A stretch of 32,182 nt of DNA, from positions 1-32,182 of the IMG/VR virus record IMGVR_UViG_3300046450_000258; one strand, written 5' to 3'. Positions 3,980-21,145 of the stretch are shown in pieces; the stretch's first letter is position 1, and each line of letters starts with the position of its first letter. This stretch comes from a virus. A program made the position numbers and the translations under genes. Below the pieces are notes generated by a model that saw only the letters and a list, made by a program, of their open reading frames with translations, did not search any database and was not told the origin of the DNA.

Positions 3980-4657
3980 CTATTTTTTTAAACAAATGAA
4001 ACCTAAGAAGTTATAGTTTTGCCAGAACGTATGTACTTCAAATCCAACATCTTCACACATTGTAAAGAGTTCAGTCTTGGTATTTAACTTCATCATATGT
4101 CGTAATTGTACTTCTTTATCTAGTATTTCTTTATCACTAAAATTTTTTCTTTTGTAGTCATAATAACAAAAAGTCATCATGTCTTGTACTCTTGGATTAC
4201 AGCTAAGAGTCTTTTCTGAAAAGACAAAAGCACCACCTGTATTTAATCCATCATAAACTTTTTGAATTATCTCTTGTCTATTTTTTGGAGCCATGAATTG
4301 TAATGTAAATATAGAAGTTACTAGTGAACAATTTTCAAAATCAAAATCTCTTACATCACCTCTAAAATAATTTAACATTTCATATTTGCTTTCATCATCA
4401 TTATAGTCACCAAAAAAATCAGCTTCAATTTCTATACCTGTATATTGTGCATGTGGTATATGTTTTTTATTTTGTTCTATCATACCTTTTAGTAGTTTAC
4501 CACTAGAACAACCTAGATCAACAACTTGCGTATAATCTTCAACAAAATATTGTGATAGAGAAAGTATATCACTCCATAGGTCACTATATCCTCTAATTGA
4601 TTTGTCAATATGATTATCAAATCCTTCTTTTGATGTTGCGAATGTAAATTTAGCCAT
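3980..4657 (-). CDS. CmoA-like SAM-dependent enzyme (carboxy-SAM synthase family)
   Basis: A 225-residue class I methyltransferase-fold protein. It aligns along its length with E. coli CmoA (247 residues), which makes carboxy-S-adenosylmethionine from SAM and prephenate. Shared blocks are IRGYSDL (Tyr24 matching CmoA Tyr39), VVDLGCSSG (46-54), GDVRD (100-104), FTLQF (117-121), GLNTGGAFVFSEK (137-149) and YDYKRKNFSDKEI (166-178). In a gapless alignment of the C-terminal helix, CmoA Arg199, which contacts the carboxylate of carboxy-SAM, falls on Glu182; the nearest Arg is Arg186, one helical turn on. CmoA Asn132 falls on Ile116. Family membership is therefore clear, but the product is uncertain. 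The ATG overlaps the stop of the C5-cytosine methyltransferase gene by eight bases and has AGGAG seven bases upstream, so the two enzymes are co-expressed. No CmoB is visible in the window. Confidence 0.8.
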   Translation of the reverse strand: MAKFTFATSKEGFDNHIDKSIRGYSDLWSDILSLSQYFVEDYTQVVDLGCSSGKLLKGMIEQNKKHIPHAQYTGIEIEADFFGDYNDDESKYEMLNYFRGDVRDFDFENCSLVTSIFTLQFMAPKNRQEIIQKVYDGLNTGGAFVFSEKTLSCNPRVQDMMTFCYYDYKRKNFSDKEILDKEVQLRHMMKLNTKTELFTMCEDVGFEVHTFWQNYNFLGFICLKK

Positions 4658-5813
4658 TAGTTATCTCCTTATATGGTTTTAATACTTTATTATATACACT
4701 TTCAGATAGTGCCTTCATCATTAACGGTGGTACCATACGCCCTATACGTTCTGATTGTTTTATATGTTTTCCTGTCAATTTAAAGTCTTCAGGTAATGAC
4801 ATAATTCTTTTTAATTCTTTAATAGTAAATTTTCTATTTTCTGTTGGGTGACAAGTACCAGCAACACCTGGAAGATTACCCATAGCTGTTATTGTTGGGC
4901 AAGGTTTACCTCTACTAGTTCTTTTTAAATTAAAGTGATGCCCTTTGTCATGGTAATCCATACCACTTAAAACTTTCTCGGGGTCTTTTGGCATCTTAGC
5001 CAAAGTCTTACCTACTGCTTTATCTGGACCTAAAGCCTTGTTTAAGTATTCTATTTCCTCTGGGTCTTGATTAACAATATCATTAATTGCTTCACCTAAT
5101 GTAGTTCTAAAATTATTCTTATCAGGATACAATTGATACATTGTCATAAAATTAATACCTACTTTCTCTGCTACATCTTCTCTTACCGCAATAAAGAAAG
5201 TTCTTCTACGAGATTGTGGAACACCAAAGTAACTTGCGTCTAATACATCAGCAACAACAAGATAACCAAGTTCTTCAAATCTATTTTGAATTTTATGGAA
5301 ATATTCTTTTGCTTCTCCCATTGTCAAACCTTCAACATTTTCTCCAATAATAACTTTTGGTTTAATTTCATTTGCCACTCTTAAAAATTCAAAAAATAAA
5401 TCTTCAACGTTTTCTACACCCTTAATATCTGAATATTGTTTTGTCTTACCAAATGCAGCTGCATGAGTTCTACCTGCACCATGAGATACTGAACCTGCCA
5501 TACTGAACGCCGAACATGGAGGAGAACCATCTAGTAAATCTAGTTCACCTGGTTTCATATTAATTTTTTCTAAAAAATCTTTGCCAGTTAGTTTTTTAAT
5601 ATCATCAGGAATAATAATAGTATTTGGATAGTTTTCTTTATAAGTTTTTTGAGCTTCTTCTACAAATTCATTTACTGCTAGTATCTTTCCACCAGCTAGA
5701 CGATAACCTGTTGAAGAACCACCACCACCGGCAAATGTAGATAGAACATTAAACAATGCTCGTTTCTCTCCATCTAATACGTCTTGTAATTTATATCTTT
5801 TATATTCGTTCAT
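4650..5813 (-). CDS. DNA cytosine-C5 methyltransferase 1 (motif X Arg variant)
   Basis: A 387-residue Dcm-family enzyme that modifies cytosine C5 in DNA. Motifs run in order: I, STFAGGGGSSTGYRLAG (25-41); IV, DGSPPCSAFS with catalytic Cys100; VI, GENV (157-160); VIII, GVPQSRRRTFFIAV (197-210); a short target-recognition region, about 230-300; IX, GKPCPTIT (302-309); X, ERIGRMVPPLMM (355-366). In motif X the near-universal Asn (IGN) is Arg359. The same substitution occurs in the second C5 enzyme of this window. The gene overlaps the CmoA-like gene downstream and follows the MT-A70 adenine methyltransferase. The promoter -10 (5822-5827) lies only eight bases before the ATG and there is no Shine-Dalgarno, so the mRNA is probably leaderless. 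No restriction endonuclease is nearby, which suggests self-protection or genome modification. The target site cannot be read from sequence. Confidence 0.95.
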   Translation of the reverse strand: MNEYKRYKLQDVLDGEKRALFNVLSTFAGGGGSSTGYRLAGGKILAVNEFVEEAQKTYKENYPNTIIIPDDIKKLTGKDFLEKINMKPGELDLLDGSPPCSAFSMAGSVSHGAGRTHAAAFGKTKQYSDIKGVENVEDLFFEFLRVANEIKPKVIIGENVEGLTMGEAKEYFHKIQNRFEELGYLVVADVLDASYFGVPQSRRRTFFIAVREDVAEKVGINFMTMYQLYPDKNNFRTTLGEAINDIVNQDPEEIEYLNKALGPDKAVGKTLAKMPKDPEKVLSGMDYHDKGHHFNLKRTSRGKPCPTITAMGNLPGVAGTCHPTENRKFTIKELKRIMSLPEDFKLTGKHIKQSERIGRMVPPLMMKALSESVYNKVLKPYKEITNG

Positions 5814-5821
5814 TTGTAAAT

Positions 5822-5850
5822 ACTATATCATACTTTGTCATGCTTGTCAA
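5822..5850 (-). promoter_or_regulatory. Sigma70-like promoter for C5-methyltransferase 1 (likely leaderless)
   Basis: TTGACA (5850-5845), a 17-base spacer, and TATAGT (5827-5822) preceded by TGA. It lies partly inside the 3' end of the MT-A70 gene. A start site seven bases below the -10 would be about two bases before the ATG at 5813. Confidence 0.75.
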
Positions 5851-6382
5851 CCTCATTTCCCCAAGAATCCCAATTATCTCGTGTATTACGAGCAAATAGT
5901 TCTACGTAAGGACCACTTAACATAGTTTCTATATGTTTGTACACAATATCTGGTTTTCTACTATGTTCTCTACGTTCAGACACTACTAATTGTGGTGTAC
6001 TCATATTTAGCCTTTTTGGTTTACCTCTAGTTGCTAGTAAACACATTTCAGGATTTGATCTAGTCCAATATCCTAAACCAGTAAAAAATCCTAAAGACTT
6101 TCTATTAGTTTTTGCCCAAGTAAATCCAACTGTTTTATACTTAAATCCCCAAGCATCTATAACCTTAAACGCTTGATCTAGTAGTGGATCAACCACCCAC
6201 ATTAATAAGACTGCATCGTCTTTAGCAAGGTTATTAACAGGTAACTTACAAATGTCATCAATTGACATACAAGGATAGTGTTGATTAGCATTCTTTCCTT
6301 CACCCTTTTTGCTATAGCTTTTAAAATACCATGGCGGGTCTGCATAGATTACTCCAAATTTGTTTGTTGTATCAAGTTTCAT
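5828..6382 (-). CDS. MT-A70 family DNA N6-adenine methyltransferase
   Basis: A 184-residue MT-A70 enzyme, probably methylating adenine N6 in DNA. The catalytic DPPW lies at residues 15-18 (VIYADPPWYF). Further landmarks are the NQHYPCMSIDDI segment, LLMWVVDPLL, the helix-strand VGFTWAKTNR, GYWTRSNPEMCLLATRG, and the C-terminal KPDIVYKHIETM and YVELFARNTRDNWDSWGNE, which are characteristic of the family and complete the SAM pocket. The length is normal for phage members. The start context AAATTATG is shared with gp43, gp47 and SufT and lacks a Shine-Dalgarno. The start overlaps the end of a 49-residue gene. Together with C5-methyltransferase 1 and the CmoA-like enzyme it forms a base-modification block. 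Confidence 0.93.
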   Translation of the reverse strand: MKLDTTNKFGVIYADPPWYFKSYSKKGEGKNANQHYPCMSIDDICKLPVNNLAKDDAVLLMWVVDPLLDQAFKVIDAWGFKYKTVGFTWAKTNRKSLGFFTGLGYWTRSNPEMCLLATRGKPKRLNMSTPQLVVSERREHSRKPDIVYKHIETMLSGPYVELFARNTRDNWDSWGNEVDKHDKV

Positions 6383-10027: not shown

Positions 10028-11548
10028 TTATTCTTTCTCAAAGCCAACTTTGTCTTCTTTTCCTTCTTTGTCAACCGGTCTTAATCTCTTACTTAACGCA
10101 AATGTTCTATTAGGGTTGACACTAACATTCATAAGTCGCATTAAATCTCTATTAATTAATAGGTCCGAGCCTGATCTTGGTCTTGCATCTAACCCTACTT
10201 CTATATCTTTATATGTAAATCCATTAAACGAAATGTCTATTAATATCGTTGGTCTTTTTTCTGATGGCTCTTCACCGTCAGCATTTGCTCTAAAAACTTT
10301 ACTAGTTCCATGTCTAGGTTTAGAATATGTTTTACCATTGTATTCCCATTTAATAATTTTACCTTCTTCTAAAATTTTATCAGCATGTAACGCACAAGCC
10401 TTTGAACCATTACCCGAATCAAATTTTGCTCGTACTTTTCCCACATCAGTTAGATCAACAGTTTCTAACCAACCACATTCACTTGAAGCTTGTCTATCCC
10501 AATGACTTCTTTTAGAAACCCAATCTATGATATTGTACATTAGATTTTCACCATTAATTGATCCTGATGGTTTAGGATCAGCATAATAATCAATATATTG
10601 ATAACCTTCGTATTCAGCTCCAGATCCTGGACTACCATTGATTTCTAATATATAAGGTTTTCCTTTATATACAATATGGTCAACTCCCACAAGATAAGCC
10701 TTTGAAGCTCTACTTGCTTTTAAAATAATTTCTTGTTCTTCTTCGCTTAATTTGTATGGTTTTGGTACAGCGCCTCTATGCGTATTTGATCTGAACTCAT
10801 CTTCTGCATGTACTCTATTTGTTGAGGCAAAAATTTTATTATCCACTACAAGTGTTCTAACATCACCATCTGCTGGCATGTATTCTTGTAGTAATAATTC
10901 AGCGTCATGCTTCCATAATGCTTGAATAGTTGATGTTAGAGAATCTAAACTACCAATTTTAATAACACCAATACCTTGTGTACCCGTTAATGTTTTTAAT
11001 ATAATAGGAAATTTACCACCAACAAGTTTAAGAGCATCTTCTATATTTTTTTCGTTAGAAACAAATGCTGTTCTAGGTGTAGGTATACCAAACTTTTCAA
11101 ACAATAAAGCTGATGTCAATTTATTATCACAGGTCAACATAGCTGATCTTGTGTTTAACATAAATGCTTGTGAATTTTGAAATGCTGATATTAACGATAG
11201 TCCTGCCTCATCTTCAACGGAACCCGCTCGTGTAATACAAACTGTATCTTTACCTACAAAGGTGTGTTCGGAATCTCTACCATCATAATTATAAACAGTT
11301 AAAGTATTTTTTTCTTCGTCTTTACCTGTGATGATTGCATGTTTTGTATTAATGATAATACATTTAAAGCCTTTTTTTTGACAAGCTTTTTCGATTAGTC
11401 CTACCGTTAGTTCTTTTTTTGAAGCACTACCGGATTTTTGTTTTTTAACTTTAGGACTAGCTTTCGTAAGGATAACAACCGTAATAGGTTTATCTTTACG
11501 CTCTTTGTTTTGTTCTGTTATATATTCTCTAAACTTTGGAACTTGCAT
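10028..11548 (-). CDS. RimK-type ATP-grasp ligase fused to a RimB-like aspartic protease
   Basis: A 506-residue two-domain protein. Residues about 20-345 are a RimK-like ATP-grasp enzyme: LTCDNKLTSALLFEKFGIPTPRT (138-160 region), ATP-binding ILKTLTGTQGIGV (183-195), QEYMPADGDVR (221-231) and metal-binding LEINGSPG (301-308). RimK adds glutamates to the C-terminus of ribosomal protein S6. Residues about 360-485 match the RimK-associated retropepsin-like protease (RimB, DUF785): AKFDSGNGSKACALHADK with the catalytic Asp377-Ser-Gly, then GLDARPRSGSDLLINRDLM (452-470), the family's second conserved block. In bacteria these are usually separate genes, one building and one trimming the tail. The ATG directly abuts the RegA stop (TAAATG). 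The gene sits inside the replisome cluster, and bS21 and deformylase elsewhere in the window support a translation-targeting role. The substrate is inferred. Confidence 0.88.
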   Translation of the reverse strand: MQVPKFREYITEQNKERKDKPITVVILTKASPKVKKQKSGSASKKELTVGLIEKACQKKGFKCIIINTKHAIITGKDEEKNTLTVYNYDGRDSEHTFVGKDTVCITRAGSVEDEAGLSLISAFQNSQAFMLNTRSAMLTCDNKLTSALLFEKFGIPTPRTAFVSNEKNIEDALKLVGGKFPIILKTLTGTQGIGVIKIGSLDSLTSTIQALWKHDAELLLQEYMPADGDVRTLVVDNKIFASTNRVHAEDEFRSNTHRGAVPKPYKLSEEEQEIILKASRASKAYLVGVDHIVYKGKPYILEINGSPGSGAEYEGYQYIDYYADPKPSGSINGENLMYNIIDWVSKRSHWDRQASSECGWLETVDLTDVGKVRAKFDSGNGSKACALHADKILEEGKIIKWEYNGKTYSKPRHGTSKVFRANADGEEPSEKRPTILIDISFNGFTYKDIEVGLDARPRSGSDLLINRDLMRLMNVSVNPNRTFALSKRLRPVDKEGKEDKVGFEKE

Positions 11549-19801: not shown

Positions 19802-21145
19802 TTATTTTGCAGTGATATTACTAGGGTTTTCTGGAGGGATGTTCTTGTTTTGTTCTATATTGTAGGGTTTTATTACTTTTTCGTATATATTTTGAGATAG
19901 GTTTTTCATCATTAGAGGCGCTACCATACGACCGATTCGTTCAGCTTGTTTATCAAATGTACCTTCTAGTTTATAATCATCTGGTAATCCCATGATTCTT
20001 TTTAATTCAGGTATAGTAAACTTTCTATTCTTATCATAGTGAAATACACCCGATACACTCATCTGTTGTCCTCTTTGTGTTAATGTAGGACAAGGTAAAT
20101 TGGGGGCAGGTCTTATCATATTAAACATAGATTTCTTATAGTTTATATCTATGTAATAATAGTCTTTGTCTGTATCCCATTCATAGTGTTTAACCTCTTT
20201 TTTATACAACTGCTCTATCTTTGTATCCGAATTTGTAATTATAGGTTTAGCATTTTTCTCTTTAAATCCCATGTTTTTGTATTCTTCCCACTTATCTTTT
20301 GGGATAATTCTCATATCATTTTCACTTGGTTTAGTATGTCTTGTAGGATTAAACGGTAATATCTCTACCCATTTCTTTTGAAAGCCCTTTTGTACATATT
20401 CAAATAATTCTTTTTCTTGTGATTCGTCACTTACTACGTTCTCAATAGCTTCTTTTAATGATACTTTAGTATCAAGTGGTTCAGGATATACTTCGTTTTC
20501 CATAGTCATAAAGTTCATTCCAACCTTATCCATTACATCATTTCTTACAGCAACAAAGAAACATCTTTGTCTTCCTTGAGGTGTTCCATAATCAGCAGCA
20601 TTTAGTACTTTACCCACAGCTTCATACCCCAACTTACCAAACTCATTTACAATTCTATTAAAGTATTCTTTTGCTTCTCCCATGGTAATACCAGCTACGT
20701 TTTCGCCAATGATTACTTTAGGCATTATCTCTCCAGCAATTCTAGTAAACTCAAAAAATAAATCTTCTATATTTTCTACTTTTTTACCATCAGAATAAGT
20801 CTTGGTCTGATCCCAACCCTTCTCTCTTTTACCGGCCACACTGAACGCTGAACACGGTGGAGAGCCATCAAGTATATCTAACTCACCCTTTTTAAGACCA
20901 GCGGCTTTTAAAAAGTCTTCGCCGGTTAATTCTTTTATATCGTTTGGTAATACAGGAGTATTTGGGTAATTTGCTTTATATGTTTCCTGTGCTGCCTCAA
21001 CAAACTCATTAACACATAATATCTTAGCACCTGCTAATCTATAACCGGTAGAAGAACCACCACCACCAGCAAATGTAGATATGACAGTAAAGAGTTCTTT
21101 ATTAGAGTTATCGATAACTTCTTTTAGATAATATGGTGCGTGCAT
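19802..21145 (-). CDS. DNA cytosine-C5 methyltransferase 2 (motif X Arg variant)
   Basis: A 447-residue paralogue of the C5 enzyme at 4650-5813; the first 200 residues are closely similar. Motifs: I, STFAGGGGSSTGYRLAG (23-39); IV, DGSPPCSAFS with Cys98; VI, GENV (147-150); VIII, GTPQGRQRCFFVAV (187-200); a longer and different target-recognition region (about 220-345), implying another target site; IX, PCPTLTQRG (351-359); X, ERIGRMVAPLMM (402-413). Motif X has Arg406 where Asn is usual, the same replacement as in enzyme 1. It sits alone between deformylase and the VWA protein with a perfect promoter. The -10 is six bases from the ATG and there is no Shine-Dalgarno, indicating leaderless translation. 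Confidence 0.95.
   Translation of the reverse strand: MHAPYYLKEVIDNSNKELFTVISTFAGGGGSSTGYRLAGAKILCVNEFVEAAQETYKANYPNTPVLPNDIKELTGEDFLKAAGLKKGELDILDGSPPCSAFSVAGKREKGWDQTKTYSDGKKVENIEDLFFEFTRIAGEIMPKVIIGENVAGITMGEAKEYFNRIVNEFGKLGYEAVGKVLNAADYGTPQGRQRCFFVAVRNDVMDKVGMNFMTMENEVYPEPLDTKVSLKEAIENVVSDESQEKELFEYVQKGFQKKWVEILPFNPTRHTKPSENDMRIIPKDKWEEYKNMGFKEKNAKPIITNSDTKIEQLYKKEVKHYEWDTDKDYYYIDINYKKSMFNMIRPAPNLPCPTLTQRGQQMSVSGVFHYDKNRKFTIPELKRIMGLPDDYKLEGTFDKQAERIGRMVAPLMMKNLSQNIYEKVIKPYNIEQNKNIPPENPSNITAK

Follow-up and report, generated by a model that had tools for sequence, protein, structure and literature searches.

Known DNA Cytosine Carboxymethyltransferases

The closest described system is that of the Synechococcus phage S-B43, whose SpCmoX protein is a DNA cytosine C5-carboxymethyltransferase with the target GC (Yang et al., December 2025, Nat Commun, PMC12783734). 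According to the main text of that report, the donor, carboxy-SAM (Cx-SAM), is made by a phage CmoA (SpCmoA) with a kcat of 2.33 s−1, E. coli CmoA is also able to supply it, and a third S-B43 protein, CmoY, ligates glycine onto the modified base. The crystal structure of SpCmoX (PDB 8YF3) has Arg350 in place of Asn304 of M.HhaI, in contact with the carboxylate of the donor. Wild-type SpCmoX was reported to take only Cx-SAM, and its R350N variant, one mutant of one enzyme, to use neither SAM nor Cx-SAM (PMC12783734). The same paper cites M.MpeI N374K, an engineered protein that acts as an artificial carboxymethyltransferase.

Two CmoX-like Genes and a cmoA Gene in a Marine Phage Fragment

The stretch of DNA analyzed here (the window) is a virus record of 32,182 bases that represents only a fragment. 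Its DNA is nearest to the Pelagibacter phages Mosig EXVC030M and HTVC008M, and its genes follow the order of T4-like marine phages. The source is probably a Pelagibacter-type T4-like phage. The features relevant to this work, all on the minus strand, are the following.

3980 to 4657, minus strand: CmoA, predicted carboxy-SAM synthase, 225 amino acids (PDB 4iwn/4gek, TIGR00740)
4650 to 5813, minus strand: CmoX1 (enzyme 1), predicted DNA cytosine C5-carboxymethyltransferase, 387 amino acids (60% identity to SpCmoX, PDB 8yf3)
4737 to 4739, minus strand: CGT codon of enzyme 1 Arg359 (aligned to SpCmoX Arg350)
5828 to 6382, minus strand: MT-A70 N6-adenine methyltransferase gene, directly upstream of cmoX1 (family match)
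10028 to 11548, minus strand: RimK-like ATP-grasp protein, the sole ligase-like gene noticed in the window (family match)
19802 to 21145, minus strand: CmoX2 (enzyme 2), predicted DNA cytosine C5-carboxymethyltransferase, 447 amino acids (54% identity to SpCmoX, PDB 8yf3)
19928 to 19930, minus strand: CGT codon of enzyme 2 Arg406 (equivalent to SpCmoX Arg350 and M.HhaI Asn304)

Both enzymes were classed as C5 cytosine methyltransferases by Pfam (PF00145, matches of 5.8e-54 and 6.3e-55 for the two enzymes) and by NCBIfam. The initial annotation had drawn attention to an arginine in place of the usual motif X asparagine in each of them, and this is borne out. The open reading frame of enzyme 1 contains ERIGRMVPP with Arg359 (context QSERIGRMVPPLMM), that of enzyme 2 contains ERIGRMVAP with Arg406 (context QAERIGRMVAPLMM), and both arginines fall on SpCmoX Arg350 in pairwise alignments. 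HMMER alignments place Gly-Asn at the same position in M.HhaI and M.HaeIII; the placement of the arginine in both enzymes rests on alignments. The interval originally assigned to the observation takes in enzyme 2 and leaves out enzyme 1, which lies 14 kb away.

The resemblance to SpCmoX extends to the other donor and catalytic residues that were compared. Phe25, Glu47, Phe48, Asp69, Cys98, and Arg350 of SpCmoX are all matched by identical residues in both enzymes in the pairwise alignments, and both have the SPPC motif, with Cys100 or Cys98 as the catalytic cysteine. The top PDB match for each is 8YF3, the structure of SpCmoX with Cx-SAM (1e-144 for enzyme 1 and 1.3e-112 for enzyme 2). An AlphaFold model of enzyme 2 (pLDDT 86.9, pTM 0.85) has the C5-methyltransferase fold, superimposing on 8yf3 with a Z-score of 46 and a root mean square deviation of 1.7 Å over 331 residues and matching M.HhaI with a Z-score of 31.6. 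The window enzymes share fold, motifs, and catalytic cysteine with M.HhaI and other SAM-dependent C5 methyltransferases but differ from them in motif X, where the latter have asparagine and use SAM as the methyl donor. M.MpeI N374K is similar in that a basic residue replacing the motif X asparagine permits the use of Cx-SAM; that protein, however, is engineered, CG-specific, and uses lysine, whereas the window enzymes are natural and have arginine.

As in S-B43, a CmoX gene lies within a cmoA cluster: cmoA and the 3′ end of cmoX1 share 8 nucleotides. The gene cluster around enzyme 2 has no cmoA of its own. The window CmoA matches the CmoA structures 4iwn/4gek at 5.7e-29 and is 52% identical to the active SpCmoA. 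Its match to TIGR00740 (3.2e-32) scores 112 bits, under the curated cut-off of 193, and other CmoX-linked CmoA proteins likewise fall under the NCBIfam curated cut-off. The homologous E. coli protein (PDB 4GEK/4IWN) serves tRNA wobble modification via CmoB, whereas the phage gene sits with CmoX. Arg199, an important residue of E. coli CmoA, is aligned with a glutamate in the window CmoA; SpCmoA reads alike there by eye, and because SpCmoA is active the glutamate is no argument against the window protein.

The MT-A70 gene upstream of cmoX1 was considered as a possible N6-carboxymethyltransferase. Mosig, which has no cmoA, likewise has an adenine methyltransferase gene next to that of the polymerase. 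A specific link is therefore lacking, and the MT-A70 gene is probably a neighbor outside the CmoX system.

Proposed Carboxymethylation of Two DNA Targets

The residues, the gene linkage, the phylogeny (below), and the fold of enzyme 2 lead us to regard it as very probable that both enzymes are CmoX-type DNA cytosine C5-carboxymethyltransferases fed by the phage CmoA, in the following way. CmoA would make carboxy-SAM from SAM and prephenate. Each CmoX would flip out its target cytosine, the cysteine of the PPC motif (Cys100 or Cys98) would attack C6, and the carboxymethyl group would be passed to C5, with 5-carboxymethylcytosine as the product. The motif X arginine (Arg359 or Arg406) would hold the donor carboxylate, such that carboxy-SAM is chosen over SAM. 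GC is the probable target of enzyme 1, which belongs to the SpCmoX clade. The target-recognition region of enzyme 2 is different and longer, and this enzyme probably acts on some other sequence. A single donor supply would in this way serve two specificities and shield more of the genome from host restriction. Activity, donor selectivity, the GC target, and the role of the arginine are established in the literature for SpCmoX only; for the window phage we infer the activity of both enzymes, their targets, and the protection.

On this reading, DNA carboxymethylation in nature would not be confined to a cyanophage but would also occur in what is probably a Pelagibacter-type T4-like phage, in which two recognition domains draw on one source of donor. 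As natural enzymes that differ in their target regions, the two would also be of practical use for placing a chemical handle in DNA at sequences of choice.

Fate of the Modified Base

No CmoY was found in the window, whereas S-B43 has one. Specifically, nothing in the window matches SpCmoY, none of the 40 cmoA loci of the window's clade has a CmoY-like gene, and PF00733 was found neither in 20 contigs of the window's clades (G001-G020) nor in the complete S-CRM01 genome. Because no CmoY is linked to the system in this lineage, the finished base may be bare 5-carboxymethylcytosine. That the phage lineage carboxymethylates two targets with two CmoX and one CmoA, has no glycine ligase, and retains the negatively charged 5-carboxymethylcytosine as its final modification is a proposal to which we give somewhat less than even chances. 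A ligase-free phage of this type could reveal whether 5-carboxymethylcytosine by itself protects DNA.

RimK-type ligases join amines to carboxylates. As an addition to the two-enzyme scheme, the carboxymethyl group could be further amidated; candidate ligases would be the RimK-like ATP-grasp protein (10028 to 11548) and an unlinked CmoY encoded outside the fragment. The attachment of glycine by CmoY in S-B43 provides a precedent, and the window, being a fragment only, leaves room for a distant ligase. Against this, Mosig and Melnitz also have the ATP-grasp gene but no cmoA; as a gene not specific to the system, it was mostly rejected as a substitute for CmoY. The lack of CmoY across the 40 cmoA loci, and of PF00733 in complete S-CRM01, similarly counts against a separate ligase. 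We consider further amidation rather unlikely.

Two Probable CmoX Paralogues with One cmoA

In a quick tree, enzyme 1 and SpCmoX fell in one set of 18 rows (SH-aLRT 98) and enzyme 2 in a sister set (SH-aLRT 92 for its main part), both inside a clade of 57 rows. Their placement in separate sister sets makes the two enzymes look like old paralogues rather than the products of a recent duplication. They are 68% identical in the N-terminal core and 32% identical in the target-recognition region. Relative to SpCmoX, identity in the latter region is 48% for enzyme 1 and 30% for enzyme 2, in which the region is large and divergent and spans about residues 207-368. The possession of two CmoX enzymes, one of them with this longer recognition region, distinguishes the window phage from S-B43.

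The pair is no accident of one contig, as it recurs in two others. Contigs G011 and G012 each contain enzyme 2, enzyme 1, and cmoA, with the gene order of G011 being that of the window. Apart from the window, only these two contigs were found to span both sites, and both enzymes are present in all three; no contig examined that covers both sites has enzyme 2 without cmoA. Elsewhere, two CmoX genes occur in tandem before cmoA (L120-L125, L127-L130, and L167, the L124 contig ending before the cmoA position). Three of these tandems (L122, L125, and L167) consist of one CmoX of each type, and the enzyme-2-like recognition region is kept in L122 (59%) and visibly in L167. The donor mechanism has been known since 2025; the recurrent arrangement of two CmoX, one CmoA, and no CmoY seems to be undescribed, and the main text of PMC12783734 makes no mention of paralogues or tandem CmoX genes.

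These data bear on the idea that only enzyme 1 is a working carboxymethyltransferase, with enzyme 2, its arginine retained by descent, being either inactive or an ordinary methyltransferase that uses SAM. Enzyme 2 is indeed 14 kb from cmoA and divergent in its recognition region, and most of its relatives are on contigs without cmoA, although those contigs stop short of the cmoA position. However, enzyme 2 has lost none of its catalytic and Cx-SAM contact residues, and the arginine is present in every close relative of it for which the region is sequenced. The window, G011, and G012, which are long enough to include both positions, all have both enzymes together with cmoA, and the mixed tandems of L122, L125, and L167 place an enzyme-2-type gene inside the cmoA cluster itself. 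As reported in the main text of PMC12783734, moreover, SAM is not used by wild-type SpCmoX. An ordinary or inactive enzyme 2 is accordingly very unlikely.

The Motif X Arginine Tracks cmoA

Viral loci were found through CmoA. A C5 gene lies beside cmoA in 59 of the 60 loci, and all 59 of these genes encode the motif X arginine; the sole locus without a C5 gene, L106, is in a contig of 12.7 kb. Bacterial loci were found via an alignment of CmoX proteins, with non-redundant rows and with the CmoA identities checked. Among these, cmoA is nearby in 8 of the 10 Arg-type rows and absent from all 32 Asn- or Met-type rows (Fisher test 4e-7, ignoring kinship). Given these viral and bacterial counts, the arginine is no accident. 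On the tree there are only four independent changes, in 3.5 of which on average cmoA changes the same way and in none the opposite way (sign test p = 0.125 over random pairings, not significant alone). Two loci were discounted as exceptions. L204 would be a Met-type row with cmoA, but its CmoA-like match is 9 kb away and is better assigned as BioC, so cmoA was scored as absent. L192 reads Gly at motif X, but the C terminus of its open reading frame ends in unrelated sequence there, which looks like a frameshift or truncation rather than a true variant.

Relatives without cmoA mostly differ at this position. Methylophilales phage Melnitz has an enzyme of the CmoX branch with leucine at the arginine position (L005:4010-5224), and its complete 141-kb genome lacks cmoA; the leucine is possibly a change to another donor or function. 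The C5 enzymes of control phages without cmoA have Asn or Met wherever motif X can be aligned, those of Constella and 4268 being unalignable there. Many SAM-only enzymes with arginine would have spoken against a role in donor use; in the motif X comparison of viral and bacterial relatives they were not found, the cmoA-less relatives having mostly Asn, Met, or Leu.

Arginine without cmoA was found, within the record or locus searched, in Moraxella phage Mcat8, which is absent among the CmoA matches, and in bacterial loci L178 and L186. The other exceptions are contig fragments and enzyme-2 relatives on contigs that stop short of the cmoA position. In Mcat8 and the two bacterial loci, the CmoA of the host might supply Cx-SAM.

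Both explanations that the initial annotation offered for the arginine are upheld: the residue characterizes the CmoX lineage, and within that lineage it is the carboxy-SAM contact seen in the crystal structure, with a phage cmoA adjoining enzyme 1 as a potential source of the donor. Its reasoning that retention of the same arginine by enzymes with divergent target regions points to function is less compelling: the two enzymes are homologous and their arginines go back to one shared ancestor rather than to two independent changes, which weakens the argument. A neutral lineage marker, both enzymes transferring methyl groups from SAM, would likewise need one Arg-bearing ancestor only, but it is scarcely credible given the biochemistry and structure of SpCmoX at the same residue (PMC12783734, main text), the linkage of the arginine to cmoA in viral and bacterial loci, the leucine in cmoA-less Melnitz, and the apparently independent arginine of an HhaI-type enzyme beside cmoA (L254, below). 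The interpretation of the motif X arginine in terms of donor use is thus strongly supported, which provides sequence-level support for the idea that the donor of a DNA C5-transferase can be predicted from one residue in motif X.

Other Motif X States and Gene Fusions beside cmoA

In L254, cmoA and a CmoY-like gene are followed directly by the gene of an HhaI-type C5 enzyme, which has GFPC instead of SPPC (L254:4098-4985 and L254:2584-4117). This enzyme has arginine at motif X (YERAGRTVF), apparently by convergence and not by descent from the CmoX lineage. It would be overlooked by any filter that requires SPPC.

C5 enzymes encoded next to cmoA in Staphylococcus phages and related contigs have glycine at motif X (VVGGVINQ; L252:6461-7468, L253:5684-6682, L254:4989-6008, and L255-L257). 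In the entire records of Staphylococcus phages F1 and SPbeta-like, no C5 gene other than the Gly-type one was found, so arginine is not the sole state beside cmoA. Phage SpP belongs to the genus of F1, has no cmoA match, and has asparagine at motif X. The Gly-type motif is possibly a second way to fit carboxy-SAM.

Several bacterial contigs contain natural fusions. A CmoY-like ligase is fused to CmoX, with cmoA nearby, in L179:8990-11128, L182:8981-11119, and L192:9113-11059, and CmoA is fused to an Arg-type C5 enzyme in Reichenbachiella (L200:9077-11401). The fusions suggest that the CmoX system is also present in bacteria or their prophages. In Hymenobacter, Telluribacter, and Spirosoma contigs, cmoA immediately precedes an Arg-type C5 gene (L184:9318-11002, L194:9195-10996, and L196:9333-11014).
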